Origin: Siniperca chuatsi
Taxonomy: Eukaryota; Chordata; Actinopteri; Centrarchiformes; Sinipercidae
Direction of reading: 5' to 3'
Length of the DNA stretch: 64,000 nucleotides
Assembly: GCF_020085105.1 (NCBI RefSeq)
Contig: NC_058058.1
Location: 7,465,175 to 7,529,174 of the forward strand
The position numbers and the translations under genes were made by a program. The notes under the pieces were generated by a model that had not been told where the DNA came from, did no database searches, and was given only the letters and a program-made list of their open reading frames with translations. Positions 12,156 through 61,952 of this stretch are shown piece after piece (position 1 is the stretch's first letter; the number at the start of each line of letters is the position of its first letter).

Positions 12156-15100
12156 ATGGATTACCAGGTTGTGTTTGCAGCCTTGGATACAGTATGTGAA
12201 GATAACATTTCTGTTATGTGCGGGCTTTCTGATTTGCCGTACGGCGCTACTGCCAAGCGCCTGGTCACGTGTATGAGACAGATTCAGGAGCACGGCCGAG
12301 CCCTGGAGCCTGTGGTCTGCAGCTTCACCGCCGTCTTCCATCATTATGACTTTGACGCACAAACGCCTGGGAATGGTTACCGCACCCTGGTCAAGGTATG
12401 ACTAATCCCGCTGACTGGATGTATTATGCCACTCACTGTTGATATTTGAGCTTTGATTGTACTTGTGTGATTGTGATTGTTGCAGTGTTTTAAAGGTGTT
12501 GCATGTAACATTTTAAACAAGTATTATAACATTAGGGCTGCAACTAATGATTATTTTAATTTTTGATTATTTTCTTGATTAATCTATTAATCATTCAGTC
12601 TATAAAATGTCAGAAAATAGTGAAAATATACGTTACAGTTTTCCCAAACCGTAGTTGACACACCAAATTGATTGTTTTGACCAACAGTCCAAAGGCCAAA
12701 ACTATTCAGTATATTATAACAAGATTAATTTCTCACACGAGAATCTGCAACTAGTGAATTTTTGATGTTTGCTTAAAAAAAATACTTTAACGATGAATCT
12801 ATTATCAAAATTGTAGCAGATTAATTTGTTGTTGATTGCTTTATAGACTAATCATTTCAGTTCTATATAACATTATTAAATTTTGGTGAGAAGTGGTAGT
12901 TACAGTACACTAAAGAAAGTGTGGCTGAGATGATTCGTAGCTTAGATCTCATGGCACTTGGTAGTGGGAAGACTTAATTTCCCATGAATCCTGTTGCTTC
13001 TTGTCACAAGGTGTTGAAACTTGCTTCTTGTGCTGGGTGATTTACAGTAGTACTATATTTTCATTGTGTAATAATTAATAGTTAAATTTGAGTGGCTATT
13101 AATTTTTTCTGTAATACAGAAAATACCGTTTTTCATTATGACACATTTTCATGTGAAAAACAAGCATTTAAAGCGTTTTATCGTATGACATTTTACAGTT
13201 TGACAGTTTTGTAATGATATGCTCCAGTGTAGTCAGACATCTAAAACAGGAAATTTAAATATTTTCAGATAAATTACCAAAATTACTCAATTCTTCAATT
13301 CTAACAAAAGTATTTTATATTTTCGAATATGTTAGATGAGCACATAGTGTTAAATGTAGTGTGATGTAAATGCAACTGTCTGACTGGCTTTGTTTGTTTA
13401 CACTGATGTCTGTAAAATAATGTACCCAATGCTGCACATTTTAAATCTATTAAAGGATAAAACTGCTGTTATTCTGTATTTTTCTTGACAAAAATCTCAT
13501 TAAAACACCAAAACCAACAATGTGTTAGTTTGGCTCTTAGTACTTCCCTGCCCTCTCAGTGGCACACAGTGTGTCTCTTTGATGTGTTATATAATAGTTT
13601 TTGCACAACAATGGAGCTCTATGGGTCAGAGAAATAAGCTGCACAATATCAAGCTTTGACTACACTATACTTGGTAGTCATTGTTGGTTTCGGCCTTTTC
13701 ATGGGATTTGTTCATAAAAATATAGAACATCACCACCCTTATCCTTTTAAATGCAGACTCCCTACCTTCTCAGCAAGTTACATTGTTTTTCTTTCTTTCA
13801 GGTCTTGCTGTCTTGCCTTTTGCACATCATTCACAAGGGCCGTTACATTGTCTCCAATTACAACAGTGCCTTCTTCAGGGCGGACCACAATGCCTCTGAG
13901 ATGGAGGCGTACTGCAGCGCTCTGTGCCAGCTGCGTGCCCTGCTCCACCTCGCCCAGCGGCTGATCCACGACAATGAATACGGCCAGCTGTACTCCATGC
14001 AGGACGGGGACCTGAGCCGCAGGTTTGTGCAGGAGTACAGCTCCATGCACAAAGCCTGTTTCTATGGCCGCTGTCTGGGCTTTCAGGTCAGCCAGCAAAA
14101 ACTGACTTACTTTTATTTTCAACTAGTTTTTAGCACACTGGAGTTTGTTTTCTCACCAAAATGTAATTTAAATAACTTATGGGATACAAGCCTGTTGATT
14201 GTTCCAATCGCTCATTGAGCAACTCTCGTCCGGTCACAACATGTAGTCAAACATCAGATCCCAAATAACAAGTTTAGTATTATAATTTTAATATAGCCTT
14301 GGGTTCATTATGAAAAAGTATGTGTCACTCATTTTAATAATTTGAAACCAAAAGTCTTATCATTAACTGTCCATTGTTTCTTTTCACAGTTCTCGCCAAC
14401 TCTTCGTCCATTCCTCCAAACCATAGTCATAAGCATGGTTTCATATGGAGAGATGTATGGTAAACAGCAGTCTGGCATGGGTTAGTCTTTTTCTTGTCTT
14501 TGTCTGGTTTTGTCTGTGATGTCGTGGTATTGATGGAAGAAACTGTCGTGGCCTTTTCAGATATGTTAATGTTTAAAATCATCCATCCTCTTCCAGGTAT
14601 GGCAGCCCTTTCCCTCCTCACATCAGGGAAGTACGTCATTGATCCAGAGTTGCGGGGCGCTGAGTTTGAACGCATTACACAGAACCTGGACTTGCAGTTC
14701 TGGAAGTCCTTCTGGAACCTCACAGAGTCCGGCCTTATAGCAGTAGGCAGGATCAAATATTCTTCCACTCACTCTCAAATTAGATGAAGTCCTCTTTAAT
14801 GTTTTAACTGCTCAATCCCTTCCATGTCTTTATCTGTCCAGGGCTTTTGCAGAATAGCCTCTTGCCCAGTACAGGTGAACTTCACCCTGACTGTGCCTCC
14901 TGTCACTCTACGCCTCCCACTGGCCTCAGACTCCAGTCTAACAGCCACCGTGTCACCTCCAATAGCCCACTGTGGCCCCGGGCCAGTCCACATGCGTCTG
15001 ATCTCCTGTGAGCTTCGAGAAGGACAGGTGAGGCTCCACAGGTCTAACACAGGGATGTGGTGAGGAACGTGTACGGGGAAAAACACAGAAGACAATAGTG

Positions 15101-27883: not shown

Positions 27884-32432
<4,549 letters not shown>

Positions 32433-39701: not shown

Positions 39702-40414
39702 ACATCAACATCAGATTTTTCTGAAAGCTCGGATATATCTGACTTGGCTTTTAATGATATAAAAGTGCCCGGAAAAAGTAGGTGTTATCTCCTTAATCAG
39801 TCGTACAAGGTAATTAAACCAAAAATGAATGACTATATTGTCAGTGCATTGTATTTTTAACCCCTGAAAAGATCAACCCCGCAGTCATACAACTGTCTTG
39901 AGTTGTCAGGTGATTCTCTCCCATCCGTCAGGGCATGAACGCTGCATTGTAGACTAAAACATTTTAACTGAAGGTCTGCATTACAAATTGGACATGTGAA
40001 GTTTGAAATATATAGGAATTACCCAGGCATGGAAGATCTAATGAAAGACTCTATTGAGTTGTATTATGTGAAATGGACCCATACTGGGGAATAAAAGTCT
40101 CTGCGTCTGCCATTCTTTTCTTTTAAATCTGTCTCTTGCGAGTCCCCCAACTTTACGTGTTAAATTGCTTTATACTTTTGGATTATCTAGCCTGCCTGCC
40201 TGCCTGCATCAATTGCACGTTACTGATTGGTATAGTGTGTCAGCTACCATTACCTACATCTTAAATCGTAATAGCTCTAAGTACATTGCTTTAATCTCCT
40301 GTATTGATATACCTGTAAATAATCAATGATACCAACAACCAAATATTCTCTCTTGGTTTTAACCCAGTCACTCACCCTCTCTCTTGCTTTATCCCTTAAT
40401 TTCTCTCTGCCAGA

Positions 40415-43400
40415 ATGGGCAGTGTTTTGGCTGCCAGCTCCCCCAACCCTCCACCACCAGCTTCTGGTGGTGCTGCCGTCCCCGGGTTGACGGTGCCGCC
40501 AGGCTTTGGGATGCCTCCAGTTTCCTCAGTTATACCCCCCACTGAGGCAGCCTCAGGACAGCAGCAAGAGGCAGAAAACTCTTTGCCTAACCCAGGTGCA
40601 TTTGATGAGTGTCATCGCAAGTGCAAAGGTAAATGGAGATATTTGAGTCAGGGCTCAAGAAATCACAGTCTTGCTTCTGATAAATTATACACTGAAATGG
40701 AAAATCTATAAAAAAATAGAAGACTGGGTAGAGATGGCAAGATGCACATTGTTATACCTCACACATAAAAAGATACAGTGTGGTCTGTGAGTACACTATG
40801 GAGCTCTGAACATAGCAAGTGAACATATATTTGTGAGAAACAGCAAAAGTGTTGCACTACCTGGTGTTGCTTTCCAATGTGTCTTATCTACATCTAAATC
40901 CATCTGCATGTGTTTTTCCCCTCAGAGGTTTTCCCTATGCAGATGGAAGGTGTCAGGCTAGTTGTCAACAAGGGCCTTAGCAACCACTTCCAGGTCAGTA
41001 AAGTTACTTTTTACTTTAGAAACTTCTACCAACACAAATCAGAACTGGGTTTTTTTGCCCGGTATAAATTGCCCTTTGACTAAATGATACACAAAATATA
41101 GCCTGACTACGTCTCAAAAGCTCTTTTCTATAAGATTTTAGTCTGGAAAAAATCCACTGACTGATAATTGAGCTACATGTGAGTTTATGCGCCTTTTTTA
41201 AACCCAGGTTCTCCAGTCATTGGGTCGTGTGAGACTAAATGAATCAAGTGGAAATGTGTATCTCAGCAATTCTACTATGATCAGACCAAAGGAAGTGAAC
41301 TGCAAATGTGTTAAAGGTACATTTTTAATTGTGTCCTTTTTAAACTCTCTAAGGTGAATCACACTGTGCTGCTGAGCACCATGGGAGAGTCCACCTACAG
41401 GTTTGGTGCTACATACGTTGGATCAAAGCTGACAGGTCCAGCAGAGGTATGCTGCAGTAAAGTCATGATGAATCCCATCTGTAAGACATTTATATTTTCT
41501 TTATATATGAAGTGTGATGTAAATGCTCTGCTCTTTTTGTTAAGTTTTTTCCAGTCATGGTGGGAGACATGGACAACAGTGGCAGCCTTAACGCCCAGAT
41601 CATCCACCAGATCAGCAACAGAGTACGATCCAAATTGGCCTTCCAGGTAAAGCTTCAACATTTTGTCTCCCTTCTGGATCTTTTTACACAACTTTAATAC
41701 CGCCATAACCTGACCATAGTGGTCAGTTTATTTGCAAGTTTATTTCTTTTTAATTTTTCCTGATTTCTCTCATGATGTTAACTGAAGCTAGACTGATAAA
41801 TCGGCCAGGCTATATTAGCTTATCGCAGATATATTGTATCAGCGTATATTTTGGCCAATAAGTAACAAGAAATTGCAGTACAGAAATACCAAAGATATGT
41901 TAAAATAAATTTAGAGACAGTTGCCTCGATACAAAGTTTGTCCACCAGAGAGTGCTGGAAAGTTTATTTTTACAATGTAAAATGTATTTTGGTCACGATT
42001 CCTAAATAATCAAATTCAACTGATCTTTACCAAAAATGTTTGCATATGTTATGTGTTAATGTAAAAAAAAATGTATTATCAGCTGATATATCATTATCAG
42101 ATTTTAAAAAAATCTCATATATCGATATCAGTCTTAAATGCTGTATCAGTCGGCTATAATAACTTCTGTCATGTCCTCAGACACAACAACAGAAGTTTGT
42201 GAACTGGCAAGGCGATGCTGAGGTCAGGGGAGAAGATTTTACTGCAACGATCACACTTGGGAACCCAGATGTCCTTGTCGGCTCTGGTAGGTCTTCAGTC
42301 AGTAATGCTGTGTAGAGGATCCAGTCTGTGGATATGTTTCCATTTTATCACCCGAAGACTAAAATTACTTTCTATCCGTAAATGTTTTAGGATTGTTTTT
42401 AATTTTCTGAAAGTAGATATTTAATTTGACCGAAACAAAGATTTGTTCTGAACCCGAACACCTCTTGTTGTCTTGCTGTTGTCCACTTGTCAGGTATTGT
42501 TGTAACACACTACCTCCAGTCCATAACGGCGGCTCTGGCTCTGGGAGGGGAGCTGGTTTACCACCGCAGGCCGGGAGAGGAAGGCACAGTGATGTCGTTA
42601 GTTGGCAGATACACAGGTGAGACACAGGTTATTGTGAGCATGTTGTCTGGATTGAAAGATCCACTTGGATCCAATTTACTTAGACTGAATGAGTCCATCT
42701 TTTTTTTTTTATATATATATATTTTTTTTCTTTTGGTTAAACTAGTATTGACTTGACCTCCTTCCGTACAGGCAGTAATTACATCGCCACATTGACACTC
42801 GGCTCAGCGGGGGCTCATGCTTCATACTATCACAAAGCCAACGAGCAGGTAACTTTGTTGCTTTTTACTTGTCCTGTTTGTCAGACTCGGGTCAAATAAA
42901 GGACTTATAATTCACCTAACACTGGTGTCCGTGTTTATGATCCATATTTAATAATGTTAAAGTTGACCTAGCTTGGTGTGATGTCACGTCCAATTTGTCT
43001 TTTTTGAGGTGGACATATAACTCCGTCACAAAAACGACTCCAGGTGTTACTGTAGTGTATATAGATGTATTTTTCTACGTCATTTTCCTACACATTAACT
43101 CACTGTGGTCGGCAACCTGCAAAACTGTCTTTCAAGTACTTGCTGGCTTATTGTCCTGAGCAGTAAAGCCAGCCTCCTTTATCTTTAGGTAATGTAAATG
43201 CTCCCTGACCCAGGTTTGTTTTACGTGTGTGTGAAATCTTATGGCATTTTTTCACATATCTGCATATATCGGAGTCTAACTGTCTGCTGCTCTTCAACAG
43301 TTGCAGGTCGGTGTGGAGTTTGAAGCGAGCACCCGCACACAAGACACCAGTGTGTCATTCGGCTACCAGCTAGATGTGCCTAAAGCCAATTTACTGTTTA

Positions 43401-44071
43401 AAGGTATGATGTGTATAAACTCTATTTCAGGGGAAACACTTGCATATACTACATTCATTACCACAGTGATACTCTTGCACAAGTACAAAGACTTTTTTTT
43501 TTTTACCAGCCAAATATGTTTGTTGTAGATTACAGAGGAAAATCAAAACGGTTGTCACTTGTTAAATCGTAGAGTTGATAGATTTACAAGCCGTTGTTAA
43601 AATTCAACAGCAGGTGGCTGGAAAAGTTTGGGTCCTGATTGTATTTATACATCCAGACAAGTCAGTTGTGACAAAATATAACGAATAAGCAACTTTCCCA
43701 AAATGTTGAGCTATTCCGTAAAGAATTGTTTCTGTGCTGTGGCATTGCCTGTGAAATGTCATGCAAATTATATATATTTGAATTAAAATGGACAGTTTTC
43801 CAAGAGGCAAAATGGAAAAATTCTAAGAAGAAGTTTCATATTACCACAGAAAAATGGCCTATATTCATAGATGTTTTTACCTGGTATATTAAACCCATCT
43901 AATATTCTGCCTCCTACTTCTCTCCTTTCAGGTTCACTAGACAGTAACTGGGTCGTTGGTGCAACGTTAGAAAAGAAGTTGCTCCCGCTGCCACTGTCTC
44001 TGGTCCTCTGCACCTTCCTCAACCACCGCAAGAACAAGTTCCAGTGCGGTTTTGGCGTCACTATCGGTTAG
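40415..44071 (+). CDS. tomm40: TOM40, mitochondrial outer-membrane import channel, 9 coding exons, 341 aa
   Basis: The beta-barrel pore of the TOM complex, through which nearly all nuclear-encoded mitochondrial preproteins pass. Exons: 40415-40628, 40926-40993, 41354-41446, 41545-41646, 42181-42286, 42494-42616, 42772-42848, 43301-43403, 43932-44071; 1026 nt, 341 residues (human 361). The proline-rich cytosolic N-terminus starts [15 protein letters not shown]. The conserved block [18 protein letters not shown] leads into the barrel, with [68 protein letters not shown], and the C-terminal strand [14 protein letters not shown] ending TIG. All junction phases agree. An AATAAA lies at 45225-45230, about 1.15 kb past the stop. 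The gene lies tail to tail with the minus-strand apoA-IV-like gene, whose stop is 1.8 kb away. Confidence 0.97.
41788..42165 (+). mobile_element. MITE-like repeat, GATAAATCGGCCAG family, copy 4
   Basis: Starts GAAGCTAGACTGATAAATCG, shares TTGGCCAATAAGTAACAAGA with the 20680 copy, contains TCCACCAGAGAGTGCT like the 9.6 and 11.1 kb copies, and ends GTATCAGTCGGCTATAA. It is in a tomm40 intron, immediately upstream of the acceptor for exon 42181-42286. Confidence 0.6.
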
Positions 44072-45235: not shown

Positions 45236-45879
45236 GTTTTGAAATAATGTGAATCAAATTACAGAATATATATATATATATTATGTATATGAATACCATT
45301 AGATCCTATATGATATTAGGATTGTGTTTTTTTTTTTTCATTATTGTTTTGTTTTTAGTTTCCATACAGGAAAGACACTTGTTTTAAGGTGAATACTGGA
45401 TCTAACTAGCATTTTAGTTATTGCTAAAAGTTGATAAAAAAAAAACATAGGTGGCAGTAGACTTTCAAACAGAACTTTTTTTTGTGGAGTGTAAGAAAAG
45501 AATGAGCACAGAAAAGCATTTAAAAGATCACACGCCCTTGTAATCCTTTAGCATGATGCCCAAAGACACTTGAGTAGTGCGCTTGTTAACACAGGATGAA
45601 GCTGTGACAGACAGACTTCTTCCCCATTAGGTTGTCCACTGAGTGAATTCTGTCATTCGGTCAAATGGTTTTCTTGTTGCGGAACATTTAAAGTAACAGT
45701 AGTGTTGCTCAGCAAGTCAACAAGTCTTTGGGTGTGAATCACTCTTCTGTGAAAAACTGGCACTACCATGTTAATTAAGACACCAACAGACTGAACTTGT
45801 TCATTAAATATTTATTTAATAAAATATACATTGGGTATATTTAAATATTTGGTGTGTGGAGGCTGATAGTGGATCCTAT

Positions 45880-46848
45880 TTACTGGGTCTTCTTAGTGAA
45901 GGACTCCCACAGAGCAGCCAGCTGAGCTTGCAGGTCCTGAGCGCTGGCATCCAGCTTGGCCCTCAGCTCCTCTCCGTATGGAGCCAGGTTCTGCTGGATC
46001 TCCTGGGTTTTCTGGGTCAGCTGGGTCTCAAAGCTCTGGGCCAGGGGGATCATGCTCCTCTGAAACTCCTCCAGGCTCTGCTCCATCTTCTCCTTCATCT
46101 CCTCGGTGTAGGGGACCATCTGGGCCTGCAGCTGGTTCACACTCTTTTCCAGCTGCCCCTTCAGCTCCTGGCTCTTCTGCAGCAGGATGGCCTTCAGGGC
46201 CTCGGGATCCATGGACTCAGCGTAGGGGGCCGCCTCCTTCTTCAGCTCCTCCACCTGCCTCTGGAGGTGCGCCACCATCTCCTCAGCGTAGGGCTGCAGG
46301 TTAGTGCTCACGGCGGTCAGATCCTTCTCCAGACGAGCCTTCAGCTGCTCGGCCTGCTGGGAAAACTTAGTCATGAAGTCCTGAGTCAGAGGAGCCACCT
46401 GGGTTTGCAGAGCAACCACGTAGTGATTCACTGTGTCAGCGCTCTGAGAGATCCTGGCACTGACAGACACAGAAAGAAACAGTTATTAAATTGAAACATA
46501 CAGTATATTTCCAATGTCAATAAGCTTCTTCACGTTGACTCTTACTTCACTTCCTGTCCCAGCTCGGACTGTCTGATCTGCTGCAGGGAGTCCTCAGCAG
46601 TGAGTGTCGCTTTAGCAACGTAGTCCCAAAAAGCATCTTTCACCATGTCCAGATTGCTCTTGGGAGGCGCCTGCCACAGGATGTTGGCATTGCAAACTGT
46701 GCAGAAAACAGCAGATTTAGCACAGAGGTTCAGTAGAACCCAAACATTTCTTCACCAGTTGTGGTTTACATGGATCCGGCTTTAATTTCAAAGGAAAAAC
46801 TCACTCACCAGAGAAAACGGCCAGTGCGAGAACCACAAGTACCTTCAT
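45880..46848 (-). CDS. apoa4b: apolipoprotein A-IV-like, copy 1 (minus strand), 256 aa
   Basis: Secreted exchangeable apolipoprotein of chylomicron/HDL-type particles. Coding exons on the minus strand: 46848-46809, 46696-46546, 46459-45880 (40+151+580 nt, 257 codons with stop). The start MKVLVVLALAVFSVCNA is a signal peptide with a hydrophobic core; the mature protein begins near NILWQAPPK. The last exon is a series of amphipathic 11/22-residue repeats punctuated by proline (APLTQD, QPYAEE, APYAES, VPYTEE, IPLAQS, APYGEE). A 5' UTR intron precedes the signal exon (acceptor at 46863-46865; exon 1 ends 46983). Teleost apoA-IV genes of this length and exon plan lie beside apoE; A-I is less likely given that context and the size. 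The last 510 bp are almost the same as copy 2. Poly(A) signals of the AATAAA type lie just past the stop on the minus strand. Confidence 0.92.
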
Positions 46849-46982
46849 GATTGAATTTTACTCTGTTGGATGAAGACAATGAATGTACAATTTAAATAAA
46901 CATGTAAAAATGTATAATCTGACAATTACTTTATTCATGAATTTATGAGAAGTGTTGTAATAATAATATTAAAATGTGTTAC

Positions 46983-47061
46983 CTTGCAGAGGCAGCTTGT
47001 CTCTTCTTCACTCTGTGTCTGATGACTTGTGCTGTGCAGACGGCCGTTCAGAGTTTTTATA
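46983..47061 (-). promoter_or_regulatory. apoa4b: TATA promoter and 5' UTR exon 1 of apoA-IV-like copy 1
   Basis: On the minus strand TATAAAA (47061-47055) is followed about 30 bp later by the presumed start and a 5' UTR exon of about 45 bp ending CTCTGCAAG|GTAACA at 46983. This TATA-driven layout, with a leader intron, is the same in the other two apolipoprotein genes in the window. Confidence 0.7.
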
Positions 47062-47064
47062 GCC

Positions 47065-49425
47065 ATACTGAAGGGTAAAGTCCCTCTCTGGTTGCCCCGC
47101 TGGATACATTCTTGTCACTACTGTCACTCCACGTCATAATTTAAGTGTCATTGCCTTTTTCATCCTGTGATACATATTCCCTGGCATCTGAATGGGTTAA
47201 GTAATGGTTTATACCCCTAAAACAGCATCAGCAGTTACACAGAAGGCAGTGACGACTGGCCAGAAGGGTTCAAATCCTTTAAAGTAGCAATGCAGTAACT
47301 TTCATTTAAAAATAGCAAATAAATGTACAGAAAAGGCCCCAAAATGTCACTTAAAGCTGCATTCATTGATTTGTGCTATAAACATGACGCTGACAATGAC
47401 ATGTTTATTCCCTTATAAAGTTGGTATGGTAAACGTGTTAGCATCCAGCAGATACGGAGCAACATTAGCGTCTGGAGTCATTGTGTCTGGTCACCTGATG
47501 AATTTGAGTCCAATATTCACTCTCCTTTTAGCTCTTTTTTGGTCGTCACCAACTCCAGAAGGAAATATCTGGTTCTTTAGCTGCTAAATGCTCCGCTACA
47601 TTCACCAGCTAGTCACTAACTGTGTCTGTCTGTTGTTTGGTGCCGGGCAGGTAGCGCTCAGTGGGCTTTTAGAGTTTAAATGAGGTTGATGAGAGTGCTG
47701 AGACTGAACAGTAAAGTTGAGGGCTGTAAAACCAAAACAATGAGCTGAAAGGTGCTAAAAAAAAGCAAAAAAAAAAAGCTGAGAGGAACTGCAGAGTCCG
47801 ATGATAGTGACACCTTTCACGTTACACATAGTCAGTCATTTAACCTTTTGTTTGTTTAAAATATTGATCAGTGCAGCTTTATGTAAAACTACAGAAGTAT
47901 TAGCAGTTAGAGAGGCAATACAGAAATGTTACTGATGTCATGACTCAACATATTAGCTCACCTATGTCATCTGTGTACAGTGCAGCATGGATTAGTGACT
48001 ACTTTATTAGTTTATTAATCTATTTTAAAGGTTGTTAGGTCTATGTTAGTGCGCATTGGACTGATGGATTAAAATTAAAACTGTAACAAGAGAGCTACAT
48101 AAGTTCTGTAAGCTCAGTAGCCTCCAGAAGCCTAAAGTTCACAGGGCACACTGTAGAAATAGCACAGATCTGTCTAAATAAGTCTTCTGTTATGTATTTT
48201 TGGCAACAAGGGCTATTCAGTGGCGGAGGCCACCACCACCTGTGGAGCTATTATTTAAAGTATTCCCACTTCACAATGATAGATACATGCAATTTGTGAA
48301 GAAAAAAGTATTGACTTGTGGGACATCTTTAGCTTCGTCCAAGTCTCCTTATAATTAGTTTTTGTGTGAGTCATATGAAAACAACTGGCTGTTTCTCAGT
48401 AGTTTCTCCTGGGAGAAAGACTTTAGCCCTTATGTCTTATCAGTTTGTCAGGAGGGAATCATTGTATAAGGAAACATTACATTCCTCATAAAGGTAATCT
48501 GCAGGTCAGAACTGGATCAAAGTCCTGCTCACATTTCACTGACCTATAAACCTCTGACAACAGTTTGTCTACAAGTTGAGAACATTCAGGTGAATCAATG
48601 TGTAAGTTTACTCTGTGCTTCTTAAGTTGTAGTAGCGTAATCAGCAGAAACAATGCAGTATTTGTACTGTATATCATAACAGAGTGAAACAGTAACAACC
48701 TCACTATGTTATCTGCTGACTTTTCTGAGTCTGTTAACACAGTGATGAGAACTGTGTTTACACATGTTATATAAGAGTGACCCAAATTCATGTCTCCTGA
48801 GTGTTTTTCACTAATTTGAATTAAATATGCACCCCAGTTAATGTGCAGTCTTTCCGATAGCTTTACACACATTCTGTGATATTGGACTGAAGTATATGTT
48901 TTGTGTGATTGTCCTTCATAAGTTTGTTTTTTAGCTTGTGAGTAAAGATTTTCAAAACACGGTAGTTTATATGTGAGCAGCAATAAATTATATTATCAAC
49001 CAGTTTAGTTCAGTATTAGTTTATATCTGAACGGCAGCGATGAACTGCAGTACACTTGTGAGGCACACGGCTGTTACAGTTAACCAAAGTGGGAAATATG
49101 ATTATAATCTTATATTGTATATATAATATTCTATACTATATAAGGGTCTGTTGGTCGCTTCCACCAATTTGGTCGAGACTGAAATATCTCAACAACTATT
49201 GGATAGATTGCCATTAAATTTGGTACAGACATTCATGTCCCCATCAAGATGAATTGTAATAACTTTGGTGATCCTCTCACCTTTCCTGTAGCGCCATCAT
49301 CAGGTAAAAATTTTATTTGTCCAGTTACTTTGGATTATGACCAAACACCTGCAAAACTAATGACATTCATCAGTCTCAGCTGTACTTAGTGTTTAGTGCT
49401 AATTAGCAAACGTTGACTTGCGAAA
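47065..49425. other. intergenic upstream of apoA-IV-like copy 1, no gene seen
   Basis: AT-rich. A long minus-strand frame at 48486-48983 opens from TTG and has no recognisable motif; I do not call it a gene. 49180-49290 contains phrases like ATTGGATAGATTGCCATTAA and GATCCTCTCACCTTTCC, which resemble an unclassified dispersed repeat. Confidence 0.4.
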
Positions 49426-49429
49426 CTAA

Positions 49430-50095
49430 AAGTGATGAATATGGTAAACATTATACCTGCTAAACATACAAAGATTACGACAGACAAAATTATAATATCC
49501 AAGAACAAGTTCATCAAGTTACCAGACAGCTCCAGAGCGCTCTTCTCAAAGCTTCTAAATAAAGAAGACTTTGAAGACAGGTACGATGCACTGAAAGAGG
49601 AGAATGAAGCCTTGAGACAACACAATGATGAACTCCATCAAGAAATCCATGAGCTCAGCAAGGAGATCCAAAACGAAACTTCTTCAAAAGGTCAATTATA
49701 AATCAATGAAAGCAGAGAAAAAGGCTCTAACTCACCGAAATAACACTGAAAAAAATAAATTCAGGAGATGAAGAAAAAGCTCGTAAAGGAACAAGCTTTG
49801 GAAGACAGGAATAATGTCATAAAAGAAGAAAATGAAGCCTTGAGCCAACAAAACTGCACATTGCAACTCGAGGTTCAGGAGCTCTATGACTGTATCAATC
49901 ACTGACAACGGAAAGAGATGCCATGAGCCGGGAAAAGGACACACTTTGACGAGAGGTCCAGGAGCTCAATAAAATGTTGAAAAGTGAAAAAGTGCAATGC
50001 GATGAAGGCTGAGGAAGAGAACATCAGCCGAGAGCATGACGCTCTACAACAAGAAATTCAACACCTGAACAGCTCCTACAGAGCTATGGAAAGCT
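49430..50095 (+). pseudogene. decayed coiled-coil coding stretch, origin unknown
   Basis: The frame at 49432-49701 encodes a basic N-terminal part (TKITTDKIIISKNKF) followed by heptad-like sequence: DRYDALKEENEALRQHNDEL, HQEIHELSKEIQNE. After a frame change the same kind of module recurs: DRNNVIKEENEALSQQN, LEVQELYD; then ERDAMSREKDT, EVQELNKML; then REHDALQQEIQHLNSS near 50030-50080. So three to four copies of an approximately 30-residue repeat are visible across at least three frame changes. I do not recognise the protein family. The lack of introns and the several breaks suggest a retrocopy or a fragment of a larger coiled-coil gene. Confidence 0.55.
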
Positions 50096-50109
50096 GAAAT
50101 ATGATACTG

Positions 50110-50330
50110 TGGTGTCATGTTTTTGCTCTCCGTAAGGGTCAAAGGGTATGGATGAAACTCCGGCCACAAAAAGGTGCTGGTTCAATTCCTGGGCCTGACC
50201 CTTTCTGTGTGGAGTCTGATTTTCTCCCCTCTTTGACATGGGTTTACTCCAGATGCTCTGGTTTCCTCCCACACCCTAAAACATGAGCCTCATATGTAGA
50301 TTCTACATTGCCCACAAAAAAAAGTTATTG
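50110..50330 (+). mobile_element. V-SINE-like / tRNA-derived SINE
   Basis: Contains CTGGTTCAATTCCTGGGCCT (B-box like), then the highly characteristic CCTTTCTGTGTGGAGTCTGA, TTTCTCC and GGTTTCCTCCCACACCC of fish SINEs with the V-type central domain. It ends in an A-rich tail near 50317. It is diverged. Confidence 0.65.
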
Positions 50331-51080
50331 ATTAATAAATAGTTGAGGTAAAAGTAAGGGTTCTGATTTTATATATATTTTCTTGTAATTTGCTGTCAGA
50401 GAAAGATGGAGTTGTAAATATTTCACTCAGATCACTTTTTGACATGTCTTGGTTGGAAAAACAGGTGTAAAAAACAAAATGAATGATGGCTGAATTCCAT
50501 TTAGATGCTTCGGTTTTATAGTTAATTTTGTTAGTATCAACTGTACGAAGTCACTCCCTGCTATACAGTCCACTATGTTTACTGCTATGTTTGAAATTTA
50601 AAATACCCTAAAAACTTCAGAAATGGAACAAAAAAAAGTTTCCATGATACGGTATGTACACTATTTTCTACTATCAGTCCCATGATGCAATGGGCCATAT
50701 TTTATAGATGCGAAAAATACCGTTGTGTGACTCTACAGAACGGTCAGAAATGATCAGTAAGGGTCCAAAATCTCAATTTACTACTGACAAATTACTGAGC
50801 TACCGTCTAATATATAATGAGTAGTGAAAGAGTAAACAATGGAGTGATTTCGGACACAGCCTATGACAAGCTAAAAAGTCTGCTAAAGCCTATTGCAGTA
50901 CTGCTGGATGCATTTTACTCAAGTCCTCGTTACTACCTGTGTACAAAATAGTGCACATGAAGCCGTTTTGTGTGTGTGTGTGTGTGTTTAGGTTCCTTGG
51001 GTTATCAACTCTTCCAACCTGGCTGCCTAGTATGCACACATACTAACACACACAAATATTAAAATAGATTGAAAGGATAA
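50331..51080. other. intergenic, no gene seen
   Basis: AT-rich with a (GT)n tract at about 50970-50987. No exon or named repeat is recognised. Confidence 0.4.
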
Positions 51081-51084
51081 AGGT

Positions 51085-51560
51085 CTGGTCACACCAGTAT
51101 TTAAAACGGCAGAATTCGCAGAGGATTCAGTTTATTCCGATGGAATCGCCACGATTAGTGAATTTCCTGGTGGAGGCAAAGTAAATCCTTTGACCCGCAA
51201 ATTCACGCTGTTGCCCAATAGCAAGCCGTCTTGACAGTGCTGATCTCTGAGGGAATAGCGAGCTGGAGAGTCCAAAATGGAGGAAGTTATCATAGCCCAT
51301 TAGCTATGCTGCATCCTTCACTTTTATTTAATCTCCTTAAGAGACATGGTTTACACACAGTAATGAGACAGGAGTCAAGGAGTCAGCTACAAATACATCT
51401 TTTGAATAAACTGTGTGAACTCATTGAGCGCAGCAGAAGGGGCTCGGCTTTTCAATTAAGTTTTAATTTAATTAAGTTCATATTCCTCAAATCACGTCGT
51501 CACTGAGTACTGCTGTGAACTCATGTCACATTGCCATACCTGGGCGTTTGCTGAAACAAC
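51085..51560 (+). mobile_element. possible PIF/Harbinger-derived fragment
   Basis: Starts with GGTCTGGTCACACCAG and contains CCAATAGCAAGCCGTCTTGA, then GAGGGAATAGCGAGCTGGA and AAAATGGAGGAAGTTAT, phrases I associate with the region before the MADF-type ORF of fish Harbinger elements. No long frame follows and the ends are unclear, so this is a weak call. Confidence 0.3.
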
Positions 51561-51799
51561 GCCCCTGATTTAGGGCATTTAAGCTTTAACGTATTTTAGT
51601 AGTAAATTCTGCCTTTAGGTCTTTTTGAAGACAGACACAGATAATGACATTTTTATAGTGTCATCATTCTCATTCCATACCTGTGGACCAAACCACACTA
51701 ATATCGTACATTTAAGTTTATGTTCTTTACCCTTTATAAGATGCCTTTTCCTAGTCTTATATGTATGCAAGGGAAGGTCGTTGAGCATATATATAACAT

Positions 51800-52245
51800 T
51801 TTACATTGTACAAGCATTGTGAAAGATATTACATTCAGTAAGCTTCAAAAGAGTGTAGCTGTGGAAAAGAGCGTCAGTGGGAGCTTTTACTTTTTGGACC
51901 ATGATATGGCATGTATAACTTTCTTCTGTAAAGTCTGTAGTTTCACAAGATGACTTAGGAAAAGTGTTACACCACATATTACAGTAATTTATATGAGGCT
52001 CAAATAAAGACTGATATAAGGTTAAAAGTGATTTAAGTGGAAGAAAAAGCCTCAACTTGAAATATAAGCTAACATATTTGGGCTACTTTTTCGTCAGTTC
52101 ATCAATATGGCGCTTAAAGTTAAAAAATTCATCAATACGTATCCCCAGGAATTTGGTGGACTTCACTCTCTCAATAACCCAGTGTCAACAACTGGAGCCA
52201 AAAACAATTAAGTTTGTCTCGCTCAGAGCTAGGGTATAACACCTA
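51800..52245 (-). mobile_element. LINE reverse transcriptase C-terminal fragment, antisense
   Basis: On the minus strand the frames read RVKSTKFLGIRIDEFFNFK, HIDELTKK, then RLFLPLKSLLTLYQSLFEPH, INYCNMWCNTFP and TDALFHSYTLLKLTE. These are the FLG / LYxSLxxPHxxYCN blocks after the catalytic core of CR1/L2/Rex-type LINEs. One in-frame stop and at least one frame change are present. No endonuclease or 5' part is present. Confidence 0.7.
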
Positions 52246-52640
52246 TACATTATATATATAGTTTTATCTATATACACACATTTTTATCAGACATATACAA
52301 TTTGGAATTTTAAACTTTCATTTCTATTTGAAATATATTAGTTTGTTCTGATTATACATCTAGAAAGTGTCACATAAACGCAGACATTACAACAATTACT
52401 AAATAAAAACCAAATATTTCTATAAAATAACATTTGAGTTAAAAAATCGTGCTCTGAAAGATGTCTGAAAGACGTATGATGACATAATGTAATAATGTAT
52501 AATGTACATGAGGTTTCATCAGACAGTGATGATGCCGTCCCTGATATACCACTGTTAGCACTCTTGTGATGTGGAAGCAGCAGTGACAGCACGGCACTCA
52601 GCGTTGGACTTTACTCCTGTGTTTCCTCTGTACGACTCAG
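52246..52640. other. upstream flank of apoA-IV-like copy 2
   Basis: AT-rich up to about 52600; no exon is recognised. Cis-elements for liver or gut expression may lie here, but I cannot name one with confidence. Confidence 0.3.
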
Positions 52641-52645
52641 CAGCC

Positions 52646-52725
52646 TATATATACTCAGCCATGGGCTGTGCAGAACACACACTCCGTATTCAACAGCTCA
52701 CTGAACAGCCAGCTCATCCACACAG
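52646..52725 (+). promoter_or_regulatory. apoa4b: TATA promoter and 5' UTR exon 1 of apoA-IV-like copy 2
   Basis: TATATATA at 52646-52653 precedes by about 30 bp a 5' UTR exon that ends CATCCACACAG|GTAAGA at 52725. The next acceptor (TTCTTTTCAG, ending 52814) starts the signal-peptide exon 14 bp before its ATG. Confidence 0.7.
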
Positions 52726-52828
52726 GTAAGACACCAGGAAGTCACTTTCCAGGTTGTGAGATACATGGTGGTGGTGAAAACTAACCACAAAGAGCTAATT
52801 TTGTTTCTTTTCAGCTGCCGTGTCAATC

Positions 52829-54147
52829 ATGAAGGTCCTCGTGGTGCTCGCCCTCGCTGTTTTCACTGGTAAGACAGTTTTCTTATTTCGGTGAAAATCA
52901 ACATGTAAATCATTTCAGTTGGAACAAGACGTATTCAGTGCTCAACATGTGACAATAAATGCGTTTGCCTGCTTTCAGCAGGTTGCAATGCCAACATTGT
53001 GTGGCAAAGCCAGCCCAAGCAGCAGGTCGACATGGTGAAAGATGCTTTCTGGGACTACGTTGCCAAGGCAACCATGACCGCCGAGGACTCCCTGAAGCAG
53101 ATCAGACAGTCCCAGCTGGGCAAGGAAGTGAAGTAAGGGTCTGATAAATGATAACATGAAACATTCATGACCAAATAAGCAACAGTTTAACTCAGTTAAT
53201 CTGCTTCATCAGGACTTTGTTTGATCAGATTTGGTTTGCAGTGACCAACCCACTAACTTACTAATTCTGATTGATGCATGCAAGTCATCACCTTTTTCTA
53301 CCTGAGCCTCAGGTTAAACAAGTTAGAAGAGAAAAACGTGAAATAACCAAAGCTGTTTAAAATTGTGTGTTCATGCAGGACCCCATGTAGTAAGAAGCTA
53401 TTTGAGAACGTTTTCAGGGCCTTTAAAAATAAACATTTCAACTGAATTACTGACTTTTTGTTTTTGTAATTTTGTAAGTTTCAACTCAATGAGGATGATG
53501 AATACATAAAGAAAGAGAGTTTTTCGTGACTTATTCAAAGTTTGTGTTTCTGTTTGTGTCTCTGCAGCACCCTCATCTCTGAGAGCACCGACGCCGTCAA
53601 CAAGCTCACCAATGCTTTCCGTGCTCAGGTGGCTCCTCTGACTCAGGACTTCATGACTAAGTTTTCCCAGCAGGCCGAGCAGCTGAAGGCTCGTCTGGAG
53701 AAGGATCTGACCACCGTGAGAACTAACCTGCAGCCCTACGCCGAGGCAATGGTAGCTGACCTCCAGAGGCAGGTGGAGGAGCTGAAGAAGGAGGCGGCCC
53801 CCTACGCTGAGTCCATGGATCCCGAGGCCCTGAAGGCCCTCCTGCTGCAGAAGAGCCAGGAGCTGAAGGGGCAGCTGGATAAGAGTGTGAACCAGCTGCA
53901 GGCCCAGATGGTCCCCTACACCGAGGAGATGAAGGAGAAGATGGAGCAGAGCCTGGAGGAGTTTCAGAGGAGCATGATCCCCCTGGCCCAGAGCTTTGAG
54001 ACCCAGCTGACCCAGAAAACCCAGGAGATCCAGCAGAACCTGGCTCCATACGGAGAGGAGCTGAGGGCCAAGCTGGACGCCAGCGCTCAGGACCTGCAAG
54101 CTCAGCTGGCTGCTCTGTGGGAGTCCTTCACTAAGTTGACTCAATAA
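52829..54147 (+). CDS. apoa4b: apolipoprotein A-IV-like, copy 2 (plus strand), 256 aa
   Basis: Paralogue of the minus-strand gene at 45880-46848, with the same exon plan and identical exon lengths (52829-52868, 52982-53132, 53568-54147; 40+151+580 nt). The signal peptide is MKVLVVLALAVFTGCNA and the mature start near NIVWQSQPK. The repeats are proline-punctuated amphipathic helices as in copy 1; I count 11 base differences over 510 bp from GTTGAG-free position 53626 to 54135. The signal exon differs at 7 of 40 bases, and the 151-bp exon is clearly more diverged as well. At the third exon the CAGCAG acceptor is ambiguous; using the second CAG keeps the 151-nt length and frame. A poly(A) signal AATAAA is at 54341-54346. 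Lipid transport; probable liver and intestine expression by family. Confidence 0.93.
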
Positions 54148-54549
54148 ACGGACTCGGTTTTGAATTTTTCTCTACTGCTTGATCACCAGTTGTTCATGAG
54201 ACAGATAAAAAGTGCAATACATCATTTTCTGTGTTTTTATGTTGATGAAAGATGCTGTCAGATGCAACCTTCTGAGTAATGTCAGTATTTCTTCTATTGT
54301 GTTACTGTTTACAACTATAAGCTTTAATCTGTAAAACAACAATAAATAGTTTAAATGTATTTTGTGTTGTCACTTTATTCGTATGTGAGGTGGAAAATTC
54401 ACATCAGGTTTTGGCACAACCTGATGTGAATTCTCCCTCATGTGTCTTGTAGTTTTACTTCCTGCTTTTGATTGTTTGCCCATGCCCAGTTCAACACAGG
54501 ATGGATTTTGACTTGGTGTTTGGCATAAACTTGTTTGTTTGTGCAACAG

Positions 54550-55430
54550 AGGTAGAAAATGATGAAGACGATATGGATTTTGAGGAAGAGGGATAAAGAA
54601 AAGAAAATCGTACCATGGTGGACAAAGGAATGTGAAAATGTAATAAAATCTCGAAATAAAGCTTTTAAAATGTTAAAAAGAACTCACAATTTCCAGAATC
54701 CTATTGAATATAAAAGGTTGCAAGCTTTGGTAAGGAAAACTATTAAAAATGCAAAGAAGGATTCTGATGCTCAGATTCCAGCTCGTCAATAATCAGCTTG
54801 AAGCACAGCCATTCAGACAGCAGGCCAGATGTCTTAATAGAGATACAGCAAACTCTATATAGAATTCAAATGGTGGGGCTAAATATGACATTTGTACGGA
54901 TACCAGCACACATAGGAATCAAAGGAAATGAAAACGAATCACAGTGACATCACAGTACCCCTTAGTAAAACAGAAATGAAAACCACAGAAAAGGAGAAGT
55001 CGAAAGGAAGGTGGCAAAAGCAGTGGGAAGAAGAGAGAACAGGAAGGTGCTTATACAACATTCAAAGAAAAGTAGGTGTGATGAGGAAAACGGGGAGAAC
55101 CGGGAAAGAGGAAACAGTCCAGGCTACGTTTCGGTCACTCTGGATTAAACAGCACATTATGTAAAATAGGAAAACATAATACGGGAAGATGTACATTCTG
55201 TGATCAAGAAGAAACTGTAGAACATGTTATGATTCACTGTCCAAAAAATGATGCTGAGAGAAGAGAACTGACACTGAACCTTAAAGAAATAAAGATGAGG
55301 TTTGATTTACGAGATATTTTACAAAGAAGTTCTAGAGAGAAGTGTTATCTGTTGTTTCATTATCTTAGGAGAACAAACTTGATAGAGAGAATAAAACTAT
55401 GGTGTGTTTTTTGATTGATTTTTCTTATTT
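54550..55430 (+). mobile_element. LINE debris, I/Nimb-like, internally deleted
   Basis: The first part (54559-54792) encodes KIVPWWTKECENVIKSRNKA and LQALVRKTIKNAKK, the linker between endonuclease and reverse transcriptase in I-clade LINEs. Then, with the reverse transcriptase missing, comes the end of a ribonuclease H-like domain (RIPAHIGIKGNEN-like in mixed frames near 54895), WQKQWEEERTGRCLYNIQRK (55012-55071), then a TCTFCDQEETVEHVMIHC-type zinc-knuckle region (55185-55245). The whole is spread over several frames with stops. RNase H and the CxxC...H...C tail favour the I/Nimb group. It is 0.4 kb downstream of apoA-IV copy 2. Confidence 0.65.
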
Positions 55431-57371: not shown

Positions 57372-60300
57372 ATGAAGATCTTTGCAGTAATCCTTGTGCT
57401 GGCTGTCCTCTCAGGTGAGTTCAAAATGTCTCCTTAAGGACATAAAAACACGAAAACCAACTTTTGGCATTACAGAGGTATGGAAAGAAGAAAAGTATAC
57501 ACTTGGAAAAATGAAAAAACAGTAACTAGAGAAAGAATTTTCTGGAGAAAAAAATGCGCGCGAGTTGGCAAGGTGCTTAGAAGTTGCTGACTGCTGAAAA
57601 GTTAGTGCATGAAAAGCTGTAAAAGGAAAGGAGGAAAGGAGGAAAGACAGAAGGTGATAAAGAAAGATGGCAAAAAGAAGCAAAGAAAGCATGAAGGAAG
57701 AGAATTAAATAAAGGAAGAAACTCTTTGAGATTTCGATTTTGAAATTCTTCAGCACTCCAGAAGCCTGCCGTAAGCTCCTGTTACCTTTGGGGCTTTTAT
57801 TTTGAAAATACAGCCTACTCCAGGGCCTCCCAAAGTTCTCACACTAACAATAATAACATAAAGGAAGCAAAGGGTGCTTATTGTCCACCATATATTGAAT
57901 AACACAAGTTGTCTCTAAACATGTGAGCAGTATATATGGGTCCTACAGTTTCTTTAGTGGTTTCTGAAGATCTGAGTCCTTTTTCCAGCCCAGATATCAG
58001 TCTTTGGGCCTCCGCAGTGCCCATTTATCCAAATACAGGTCCCAGATTTTATAAAGTGGAAGAGAAATCCTTAGATGAAATAATATGTGTTACAGTTTGC
58101 AGCCATTGAGTCAAAGAAGGTATTTTACCTTTCGTCCAATGCAAAACTTCTTCATCTTGTTTTATTTCCCATCTAAAAGATTTAGAAGTGAATATTTGAG
58201 CTGTTTGTCTCTGTCCAAACTAGGCTGCCATGCAAGAAGTGTGTCTCAGGATGAGGAGAAGAGCTCCTGGGAGGTCACAGTCGACAAATTTAAGGATTAT
58301 TTCACAGATCTGAACTTGAAGGCCGATGAAGTGGTGAACGACATCAAGAGCTCTCAGATCAGCAGAGAATTGGAGTGAGTTCATTTGTGTCTTGGTGATG
58401 AATTTAGCAATAGTTATCAAAGTAATAAATCATTAATAACTTTCTGTACATGTGTTTGACCTCTATGTGAATAGTTTATACACTTTAAGTGCTATAAATT
58501 CACACACCTGCTTTAACAGACTCTTACAATTGTACATTTTCTATAGATCATCATCATTTCTGACATATTTGTAATATTATTGCTGTTTTTATCTGCACCA
58601 CCTGCTCAAGGAAACATTTTAAATTCAGTCCAATATAGTAAAGGATCACTGCACACACCGTTGTCTACCTGGTAGAGGTAAACAGGTTCCCAATCTTTAT
58701 TCTTTTTATTACGCAGAAGAGTAACAAGCACACATGTCTCAGCTAATACCTTCCCCAGTGTGCAGCCGCCAACATTAATTTCAACATATATTTTATTTTA
58801 CTTAATATTTTGAATTCAGGACTTTCACTTGTAATGGAGTATTTTTATATTGTGGTATTGCTACTTTTACTTAAGTGCAAAGATCTGCATACTTCTCCCA
58901 GTCCTGACAACTGGAAACTCCATAATAATGACAAAATATACTTAGTTGCCATTTTATTAGGTACACCTATGTAAAACTAATGCAGTCTAATACAGCAGTC
59001 CTGCAATAACTCCTACCTTCATGAATGTAAAGACGTTTTTGGTGAAAATGTTTTAGAGTGATTGATTAATTCAACTTTGTGATCATTTTGGAGGCTGTAG
59101 TTTGTGGTGTGTTATACTGACATGTGTTTCTATCATTTTGTCCACCCCATTTATATCAACTCTCTGTATAATGCAATACAGTCCAACACAACCACAAACT
59201 ACATCCTCCAAAATTATCATACAGTTCAATCAACACCTCTCTAAATAAAGTTATACAACATTATAACTACAAGATATATATAGATATATAATTATAATAT
59301 GTATTACAGGACTGTATTAGTTTTAATAAACTGGCAACTAACACTGACAGTAAGTACTTTGACTTCTGATACTTTTAGTACATTTTGCTGATAATACTCG
59401 TAAGTACATTTTTGAATGCAGGATAGAGTATTTTTAGATTGTGGTATTGCTACTTTCACTTAAGTAAATGATCTGAATACTTCTTCCAGCGCTGGTAAAA
59501 CACTGTAACTAGGACAAACTAGTTTTTATCTGGGTCTTTGTGTTCTTGTCAGACTGATTCAAGTGTGTTGGACTGAGGAAAAAGCATCAACACAATGTTA
59601 GGCCTCTGCTTGCTTACACAACGCACATTCTGCCCTCGGCGGAGTGTGAGGAGGTTAATCAGCATGTGTCAGTGAGGTGAGACATGTAAAGAGCTGCTGA
59701 CTGAGGCCTGCAGTGCACTTCAGTCTCAAGTCCACTTTTCTGACGTCTTGAATCTTTACTTAAGTTTTCAGTTCAAATCCTTTTGATTTTTGCTTTGATT
59801 TCCTGGACATGGAAGGGCTCAGTGCAAACAGAGCTCCTGTAGATACATCTACAGCTCTGCTGAGACTTAGCAAAGCCTTATTTTTACATTTTACAAAGAA
59901 AAAAGCTTTTTATTTCCTGTTTTTCATCTTGAATAAGGCCTTTATTTGCTCTGATCTCAGTCCTCCTTTGGATCCCAAATGCTTCACAAGAACACCAACA
60001 AAATCCTTAAACTCATCTATCTTGCCCCCCCAGCACCCTGATCCAGGACAGCATGTCTGAGCTGGCCATGTACAAGGACGACCTACAGACCAAGCTGGCC
60101 CCCTACACTCAGGAGGCTGCAGAGCGTCTGGGCAAAGACCTGCAAAAGCTGGTTAACAAACTCCGCGAACACATGACCGAAGCCCGGGTGCAGATGGAGA
60201 AGTACAGCCAGGAGCTGCAGACCATGATGGAGCTGAATGCCGACGACGTCAGGGTCAGGGTCTCCGCCTACACCCGCAAGCTGAAGAAACGCCTCAGCAA

Positions 60301-61952
60301 GGACACACAGCAGATCAAACGGTGAGTGAAATCCACTCTGAGAGGCTGATGGGGAACTCTGTCCAGTAAGTTAACTTTTACCAACTAAACGTTCATTGTT
60401 TTTATTGAGTTTTATTGGGTTCTTCTGAGAGGATTTATCAGAAAATTTAAGAAGTTTAATTTTTCAGCTGCTTCCTCAAATACTTTGTACTAATCAGTTT
60501 TATTGTACGTAATGGATTATCCCTGTGAAGTAAACTGAATTGAGTTCTAGAGCTGCAACGATTAGTTAGTTGATTGATTGTTAATTGATTAGTTGATTGA
60601 CAGAAAATTAATTACTATTTTGATAATCGATTAATCGTTTTTCAAGCACAAATGCCAAACTTTCTCTGATTCCAGCTTCATAAATATTAACTTATGCTGC
60701 TTGTCTTTGGTTTATATCATTGTAAATTGAATATTTGGGTTTTGGACTGTTGGTCCGGAAAAACAAGCAATTCGAAGACGTCATTTTGTGCTCTGGAAAA
60801 TTATAATGGGCATTTTTACTATTTTGTAACATTTTAGAAACAAAACAATTAATTGATAAATCGGCCAAAATAACTGGAATAAATGTTAGTTGCAGCCCTA
60901 AAATAAACACACATTCAAGAGTTTTTAACCAAATGGGTTTTTTTTTGTTTGGGTGTTACCTCTAATGAGACAAATATTCTTTGTATTCATGTCTATGATA
61001 CCTTTTACCGCATTTGCTTCTTGAAAAAGAAATATTCAATTGTTCATATGATTTTATGATTTAATTTTCCCCTTTTTTTAGTCCCTTTTTCTAATATTTC
61101 TAAATGTCATTCAATAATCGCATGTCGCCATCTTGATAAAGGTCACATAACATAACATACAAATACAAAATAACGCTGTAAAACAATTAGACAGGAATAC
61201 TTTTTATAGCCACTGTACCAGACTTTGTCAGGGACAGGATGATAAAGTCCTGGACTTACCTCCATCGTTGTCCCAGGTGTTTTCACAGTCCGGTGAAACT
61301 TTATCAAGACTGAGACATTCAGTATTCAATGTTTTTTTTTAGGCCCTCTGTGTTGTATTTTCTAGAAATATATGTATAGATAACACATTTTTGATACAGT
61401 AAATAAGTGTATTTTGCTGGTATTACTTCCATACTGTTACTTAAGTATGATGTTTGAATGTAGGACTTGTAATTTACACAGTGGCAGTGGTACATTTTGT
61501 GAAGTAAAGGATCTGAATACTTACTTTTATACAATATATAATAACACTTTCTTTACAACATACTAAGTGCTGAAGCAATGTGATGAATCAGATATTTTTG
61601 AGTCTTACTCTTCACTCAGTTAAAACTGTTCTGTCCTTTTCTCAGACAAGTTGCCGACTACTTTGAGGAGCTTCAGTCCCGCACCTCAGACAACATGGTG
61701 GACATGAAGACGCGTTTCGACCCTTATTTTGCTCTTGTGCGTGACAACGCCCAGGCAAAGATCACCACCCTGAATGACCTGCTGAGGTCGCAGGTGGAGA
61801 ACATGAAGGAGAAGATTCAGACCACGGCTGAGAACATCAAGGAGCGCTTCGAGAAAACCGCTGAAGACGTGCGATCAACCCTGGGGGAGAAGATGGAGGA
61901 GCTGAACACCTGGTTTCAGCCTTTTGTCTCCAAGATCAGTGGTAACATGTAA
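57372..61952 (+). CDS. apoeb: apolipoprotein E, four coding exons, 262 aa
   Basis: Secreted lipoprotein ligand for LDL-receptor-family proteins and heparan sulphate. Exons: 57372-57414, 58224-58374, 60034-60321, 61646-61952 (43+151+288+307 nt, 263 codons with stop), preceded by a 5' UTR intron (acceptor at 57350). The signal peptide is MKIFAVILVLAVLSGCHA, and the mature start is near RSVSQDEEK. Amphipathic repeats carry prolines (APYTQE). The basic cluster TRKLKKRLSKDTQQIKR (residues 145-161) matches the LRKLRKRLL receptor/heparin-binding segment of mammalian APOE and is the main reason for calling E rather than A-I or A-IV. An intron follows at once (Arg161|Gln162), where mammals have none. 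The C-terminal part is EKIQTTAENIKERFEKTAED and ends SKISGNM. Poly(A) signal at 62033-62038. The symbol apoeb is chosen because of linkage to tomm40 and apoA-IV-like genes. Confidence 0.94.
58795..58912 (+). mobile_element. hAT-type repeat fragment (TACTTTTACTTAAGT family)
   Basis: Carries GGACTTTCACTTGTAATGGA, TATTGTGGTATTGCTACTTT and TTACTTAAGTGCAAAGATCT, the end region of the same word family as the element at 5822. It is a fragment, in apoE intron. Confidence 0.55.
59320..59495 (+). mobile_element. hAT-type repeat fragment (TACTTTTACTTAAGT family)
   Basis: Has AAGTACTTTGACTTCTGATA, GGTATTGCTACTTTCACTTA and ATGATCTGAATACTTCTTCC, parallel to the 58795 copy and about 550 bp from it. The pair could be one insertion broken by other sequence (59060-59300). 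Confidence 0.5.
60549..60899 (+). mobile_element. MITE, GGGCTGCAACTAA family, in last apoE intron
   Basis: Ends AGAGCTGCAACGATTAGTTA and TTAGTTGCAGCCCT are inverted to each other with few changes. The inside has TAATCGATTAATCG-like palindromic sequence and TTTGGACTGTTGGTC as in other copies. No clear target duplication. Confidence 0.65.
61385..61520 (+). mobile_element. hAT-type repeat fragment (TACTTTTACTTAAGT family)
   Basis: Contains GCTGGTATTACTTCCATACT, GTTACTTAAGTATGATG, TGAATGTAGGACTTGTAATT and GTAAAGGATCTGAATACTTA. It is another end fragment of the same family, about 125 bp upstream of the last apoE exon. Confidence 0.5.

Follow-up and report, generated by a model that had tools for sequence, protein, structure and literature searches.

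How can two neighbouring apoA-IV-like genes be nearly identical over most of their last exon and strongly diverged in their remaining parts? This question is raised by two genes, here termed A and B, in a 64,000-nucleotide stretch of Siniperca chuatsi DNA (C17:7465175-7529174; the window, to which all positions given without a contig refer). The whole analysis was carried out within one genome assembly comprising 719 Mb in 65 contigs. An initial annotation had named gene conversion between inverted copies as the simplest account of the similarity, and this account is supported by the drop in synonymous divergence, by a codon-bias null model, by the diverged introns and flanks and by a second gene pair providing a cross-cluster control. 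We regard it as very probable that A and B represent an old pair of head-to-head apoA-IV paralogues next to apoE and have recently undergone ectopic gene conversion in codons 84-253 of the last exon.

Two head-to-head apoA-IV-like genes and their surroundings

Gene A is encoded on the minus strand and gene B on the plus strand, both being arranged head-to-head with their 3' ends pointing outward and 5,981 bp lying between the start codons. Each coding sequence (CDS) has 771 bp encoding 256 residues, and exon lengths and phases are identical without any indel. Gene A comprises coding exon 1 with the start codon and the signal peptide (46809..46848, 40 bp), coding exon 2 (46546..46696, 151 bp) and the last exon, the coding part of which including the stop codon spans 580 bp (45880..46459); the corresponding parts of gene B are 52829..52868 (40 bp), 52982..53132 (151 bp) and 53568..54147 (580 bp, including the stop codon). 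Both last exons contain the Apolipoprotein A1/A4/E domain (Pfam Apolipoprotein, PF01442), scoring 167 bits in A (E 5.2e-49) and 156.2 bits in B (E 1e-45) at a cut-off of 90. With the last exon of gene A as the sole query against solved chains, the top two matches are apoA-IV (7.6e-30 and 2.7e-28), while among the other apolipoproteins the best is apoA-I with 9.7e-14 and apoE reaches 5.8e-5. A tblastn search with A and B revealed no further copy within the next 30 kb downstream. Viral contigs yielded 50 pattern matches and contigs of prokaryote genomes 145, none of them coding for a relative, which agrees with A and B being genes of a fish.

The window furthermore contains exons, all on the same strand, for the N-terminus of a hormone-sensitive lipase (13751-14218), a DEAD-box helicase (29227-31780), a Porin_3 protein (40400-43528), which we take to be TOMM40-like with both Porin_3 hits being slightly below Pfam's cut-off, and an apoE-like protein (58079-61952). 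The human counterparts of these genes are presumably located on two different chromosomes. Antisense to both last exons we observed long open frames (45823-46494, plus strand, 223 aa; 53398-54171, minus strand, 257 aa), which we interpret as a by-product of codon usage because the sense strands are devoid of TTA, CTA or TCA codons. The spacer between both apoA-IV promoters carries a degraded coiled-coil frame with weak leucine-zipper-type Pfam hits (49417-50100), and between gene B and apoE there are remains of a non-LTR retroelement (54550-55414; weak zf-RVT match, E 1.2e-4, below Pfam's cut-off). An open frame at 1029-1520 strongly matches the Pfam family ALKBH8_N (E 6.6e-16); in our view this is not an ALKBH8 gene but resembles the terminal part of a reverse-transcriptase protein from a retroelement.

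A homogenised tract with a diverged island

Gene A and gene B differ at 78 of the 771 coding positions, and these differences are distributed very unevenly, with 63 in the first 249 bases, 11 in the next 510 and four in the last 12. Our recount of the 510-bp tract (A, 46401-45892; B, 53626-54135) thereby returned exactly the 11 differences initially claimed, as well as the three within the 360 bp from 53761 to 54120 of gene B, which are located at 53839, 53880 and 54078. The divergence described for the surroundings was likewise recovered: the signal exon differs at 7/40 bases as reported, the 151-bp exon, said to differ at many positions, does so at 29, and the 58 bp of the last exon immediately 5' of the tract (A, 46402..46459; B, 53568..53625) differ at 27. 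The described loss of homology at the last codons before the stop corresponds to the four differences in 12 bases (P ~9e-5 at the tract's rate), and the inverted arms, estimated to be about 7 kb apart, are separated by 7,198 bp. On the protein level, 164 of the 170 residues are alike in the amphipathic-repeat region and 59 of the 83 preceding it.

While this homogenisation is real, the initial view of a single 510-bp tract has to be modified, as it is not even but consists of two near-identical pieces around a diverged island. Segment I (CDS 250-336; A, 46315..46401; B, 53626..53712) has no difference in 87 bp and segment II (CDS 383-759; A, 45892..46268; B, 53759..54135) has three in 377 bp; the remaining 8 of the 11 differences are packed into the 46 bp in between (CDS 337-382; A, 46269..46314; B, 53713..53758), a clustering that was equally tight in 8 of 200,000 shuffles. 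By BIC, a segmentation including an island is preferred, with the island placed at CDS 366-382 with 6/17 bases differing, by a modest margin (428.5 with and 430.8 without it). Synonymous changes amount to about four in 11.2 sites within the island, similar to the background, compared to one in 99.2 sites in the rest of the tract. This synonymous rate being near the background and not near that of the tract argues for the island being an unconverted remnant rather than the result of selection after conversion. The mosaic, as read from the alignment, suggests that conversion spared the island and produced two or more tracts flanking it, or one tract with patchy repair.

The clustering of identity is not to be expected from chance. 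Permuting all 771 columns, the observed maximal segment was reached in 0/20,000 permutations at each of four penalties, and permuting synonymous codons in 0/50,000 at each of three. Nei-Gojobori dS before the tract is 1.0 in the signal exon, 0.61 in the second coding exon and 1.4 in the 58 bp (0.82 combined over codons 1-83), whereas it is 0.047 within the tract and 0.010 if the island is left out. For comparable codons, i.e. those encoding the same amino acid in both genes and having more than one codon, 19/55 differ 5' of the tract versus 4/156 inside (Fisher p 2e-9), the latter falling to 1/145 without the island. The tract shows a strong codon bias with a third-position G+C content of 0.83-0.84. 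Drawing codons independently from the tract's own usage resulted in an expectation of 114.6 identical codons out of 156, compared to 152 observed, a value reached in 0 of 200,000 simulations. Purifying selection and codon bias do not account for the drop in divergence between A and B.

A similarity of introns and flanks as high as in the tract, which would be expected for a recent duplication, was not observed, as these regions are strongly diverged. Similarity exceeding that of shuffled sequences is left in intron 2 and at the ends of intron 3 (73-78% identity in gapped alignments versus 69-71% for shuffles), and intron 3 of A measures 86 bp while that of B measures 435 bp. For the 400 bp upstream, the score is barely higher than in any of 100 shuffles. 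The 177 bp 3' of the stop codons and the final 100 bp upstream align no better than shuffles. Judged from these comparisons, introns and flanks appear as the old and diverged state and the tract as the exception.

A second head-to-head pair in the C9 cluster

Searching the own genome for the family, we obtained 16 matches, seven of which are above the curated cut-off, i.e. four apoA-IV last exons (two each on C9 and C17), one apoE-type exon on each of C9 and C17 and one match on C7. Among 14 control genomes, six contained matches, none above the cut-off. The C9 exons belong to a second apoA-IV pair (C9:10250596-10256872) consisting of gene N (minus strand, adjoining apoE) and gene F (plus strand), each with a CDS of 768 bp and with the exon structure of A and B. 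Read in reverse, C9 has the order TOMM40-like, F, N and apoE, which matches the window's TOMM40-like, A, B and apoE in order and orientations; tblastn with the window exons yielded the C9 matches to TOMM40-like and apoE.

N and F differ at 78 of 768 positions, with 37 in the first 227, four in the following 361 (CDS 228-588) and 37 in the last 180, and none of 20,000 shuffles reached the maximal segment at any of three penalties. This homogenised tract covers codons 77-196, starting earlier and ending well earlier than that of A and B, and the differing ends indicate separate events. We conclude from the alignments that the same exon was evidently converted independently in the window cluster and in the C9 cluster. 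N and F possibly share a further short tract at CDS 41-104 (1/64 bases differing), the adjoining last 48 bp of intron 2 being identical at 40 positions and the local score of intron 2 exceeding 100/100 shuffles; as a separate tract it is not favoured by segmentation (BIC 455.2 with and 453.3 without it). Intron 3 has 136 bp in N and 636 bp in F.

The C9 pair allows a direct comparison of the same sequence between clusters. Over the 339 bp common to both tracts, the divergence is 2.9% between A and B and 1.2% between N and F, whereas the four cross-cluster comparisons yield 30.7-32.2% and a dS of 0.60-0.67. A stretch diverged by about 31-32% between the clusters is thus not conserved in itself. 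A Sawyer-type permutation on the 322 variable columns, corresponding to the GENECONV-type check proposed initially, gave 0/5,000 at three settings for A/B as well as for N/F, compared to 566 to 3,503 of 5,000 for the four cross-cluster pairs. Restricted to silent sites, a test of low power with 45 sites, the three mismatch settings resulted in 841, 42 and 591 of 5,000 for A/B and in 46, 65 and 44 for N/F. All 96 informative sites in the shared 339 bp group A with B and N with F, the other groupings having none. Outside the tracts (161 sites) 17 sites support this grouping, six AN|BF and one AF|BN. AB|NF being ahead inside as well as outside the tracts, the four-gene topology is unchanged and only the branch lengths differ.

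The donor sequences left an uninformative signature. For the window tract, the sites within CDS 589-759 at which N differs from F and A equals B agree with N in 16 cases, with F in 14 and with neither in six; for the C9 tracts, the agreement is with A in 11 cases, with B in eight and with neither in 10. The G+C content carries no signal of conversion direction.

Origin of the homogenised exon and age of the pairs

These data support a model according to which a break in one copy would have been repaired by copying from the other, inverted copy, i.e. by non-allelic gene conversion, inverted neighbours being able to pair as templates for double-strand-break repair. Within the last exon, the part encoding the amphipathic repeats would thereby have been overwritten in at least two tracts sparing the island at about codons 113-128, presumably recently and with copying for which no direction is implied. 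The limits of the tract would reflect failure of homology, at the 5' side by the 58 bp with 27 differences and the diverged introns and at the 3' side at the stop codon. The tract ends would fall there because the last exon is the longest homology remaining, being framed 5' by the fast-diverging 58 bp and the introns and 3' by unrelated flanks. Each conversion may restore the homology needed for the next one, resulting in a near-identical lipid-binding region while the N-terminal parts are kept distinct.

Other explanations have to be weighed against this model. Near-identical inverted repeats are a known cause of assembly error, and one last exon could have been mis-joined or filled in from the other copy. 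We consider this highly unlikely, as the 11 differences persist between the copies with eight in one island, the window contains 0 non-ACGT bases and lies inside a 28.8-Mb contig of the assembly, and the pattern recurs in the independent C9 pair, where the tract has different ends; polishing, moreover, would be expected to homogenise only copies that are near-identical already. A recent inverted duplication of the whole gene with subsequent acceleration of the diverged parts would agree with the equal coding length and exon structure of A and B. The probability of this scenario is negligible in view of the dS of 1.0 in the signal exon and 0.6 in the second coding exon, the strongly diverged introns and flanks and the different lengths of intron 3 (86 bp versus 435 bp).

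Preservation of the lipid-binding exon by purifying selection or codon bias alone could draw on the strong bias at third positions, yet it has next to no chance of being correct with 152/156 identical codons observed versus 114.6 expected under the codon-bias null and with the same stretch being 31-32% diverged from the C9 pair at a synonymous divergence of 0.60-0.67. A template consisting of reverse-transcribed mRNA instead of the DNA of the other copy would fit the confinement of the A/B tract to the last exon and its ending at the coding end. However, the N/F similarity crosses the intron-exon border (40/48 identical bases at the end of intron 2, followed by one difference in 64 exon bases), a point weakened by segmentation not favouring this border-crossing short tract as separate (BIC 455.2 vs 453.3), and a DNA template accounts for the exon limits as well, through loss of homology in introns and flanks. 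An mRNA template is therefore improbable in our view, and we favour conversion templated by the DNA of the inverted copy.

A question apart is the age of the pairs, which alters their dating and leaves the conclusion on conversion untouched. The shared layout suggests that the pair was present before the block containing TOMM40, apoA-IV and apoE was doubled, presumably in the teleost genome duplication; all indications taken together, we put the odds for this at about even. As a tentative extension, the head-to-head pair might predate the block duplication, and its inverted geometry might since have kept the lipid-binding exon in concerted evolution within each block while signal peptide, N-terminal part and promoters diverged. 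If true, a self-sustaining island of homology would let the lipid-binding domain evolve separately from the remainder of the gene, independently in two clusters.

Alternatively, the C9 and window pairs could have originated from two separate inverted duplications after the doubling of the block instead of one before it, which is a serious possibility though we would not bet on it. The informative sites outside the tracts point in this direction, with 17 grouping AB/NF versus 6 and 1 for the other arrangements, although older conversions would have the same effect. Against it stand the same gene order and orientation in both clusters (TOMM40-like, apoA-IV facing away, apoA-IV, apoE) and a 31-bp upstream element that B and N carry equally far from their start codons. 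This element, possibly a nuclear-receptor site in our estimation, lies 216-246 bp upstream of the B and N start codons (B: window ~52583-52612), and in a control pool of 632 pieces, which includes the C7 apolipoprotein-family match, its B/N scores were attained by 4 and 0 pieces. N and F share a weaker match at that distance (39 and 38 of 632), A has none, and the motif GGACTTT is present upstream of all four genes.

A crossover within the inverted tract could also have flipped the spacer in one cluster, thereby exchanging the 5' halves of the genes. This is weakly suggested by intron 3 being short in A (86 bp) and N (136 bp) and long in B (435 bp) and F (636 bp), opposite to the positional pairing, by AN|BF leading 6 to 1 among the 161 unconverted sites, or 6 to 2 over AF|BN at the 8 sites up to CDS 249, and by a run of five silent B/F sites at CDS 105-126 (20, 24 and 18 of 5,000, uncorrected for six pairs). 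The upstream element common to B and N speaks against such a flip.

For the Senegalese sole, Roman-Padilla 2016 reportedly described four apoA-IV genes in two apoE-linked clusters with two genes per cluster. The four sole paralogues apoa4Aa1, apoa4Aa2, apoa4Ba3 and apoa4Ba4 agree in number and layout with the genes analysed here, conversion not being mentioned for sole in the parts of the source available to us (PMC7569605). In zebrafish, apoA-IVb.1, b.2 and b.3 are likewise closely related local copies, reported to have very short branches between them, gene conversion again going without mention in the accessible portion of that report (PMC4348566). Tandem inverted duplicates of LWS opsins with partial conversion, found by GENECONV, are described in the livebearing fishes Jenynsia, Anableps and Poecilia (PMC2732921, as far as consulted). 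They are a close parallel, sharing with A and B the inverted neighbouring arrangement of fish paralogues, the conversion inside the coding sequence and one gene end left unconverted; they differ in being opsins with the direction revealed by several species, whereas the apolipoprotein tract is a mosaic interrupted by an island and is accompanied by another converted pair in the same genome. In newt Nav sodium channels, ectopic conversion moved functional segments between paralogues or duplicated exons; according to the excerpted text it concerns adaptive resistance sites there, which sets it apart from the apoA-IV case (PMC8476164). Searching titles and the beginnings of abstracts in the open-licence literature, we found no report on conversion in fish apoA-IV. 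The process as such, conversion between inverted paralogues, is known, and A and B represent a new, clean and replicated case of it, the repetition in a second cluster being the notable feature of this case.

Fish apoA-IV genes serve as markers of fat absorption and feeding. Gene trees built on whole coding sequences would label A and B, and likewise the C9 pair, as very recent duplicates, and probes or primers located in the last exon would hardly tell A from B. Orthology assignment, dating and expression assays are all affected because the exon constitutes three quarters of the coding sequence with a history unlike that of the rest. The two clusters within one genome form a compact natural system in which to study whether an inverted arrangement together with a repetitive, G+C-rich exon favours conversion, and the same system could be used to ask whether selection prefers a common lipid-binding domain.
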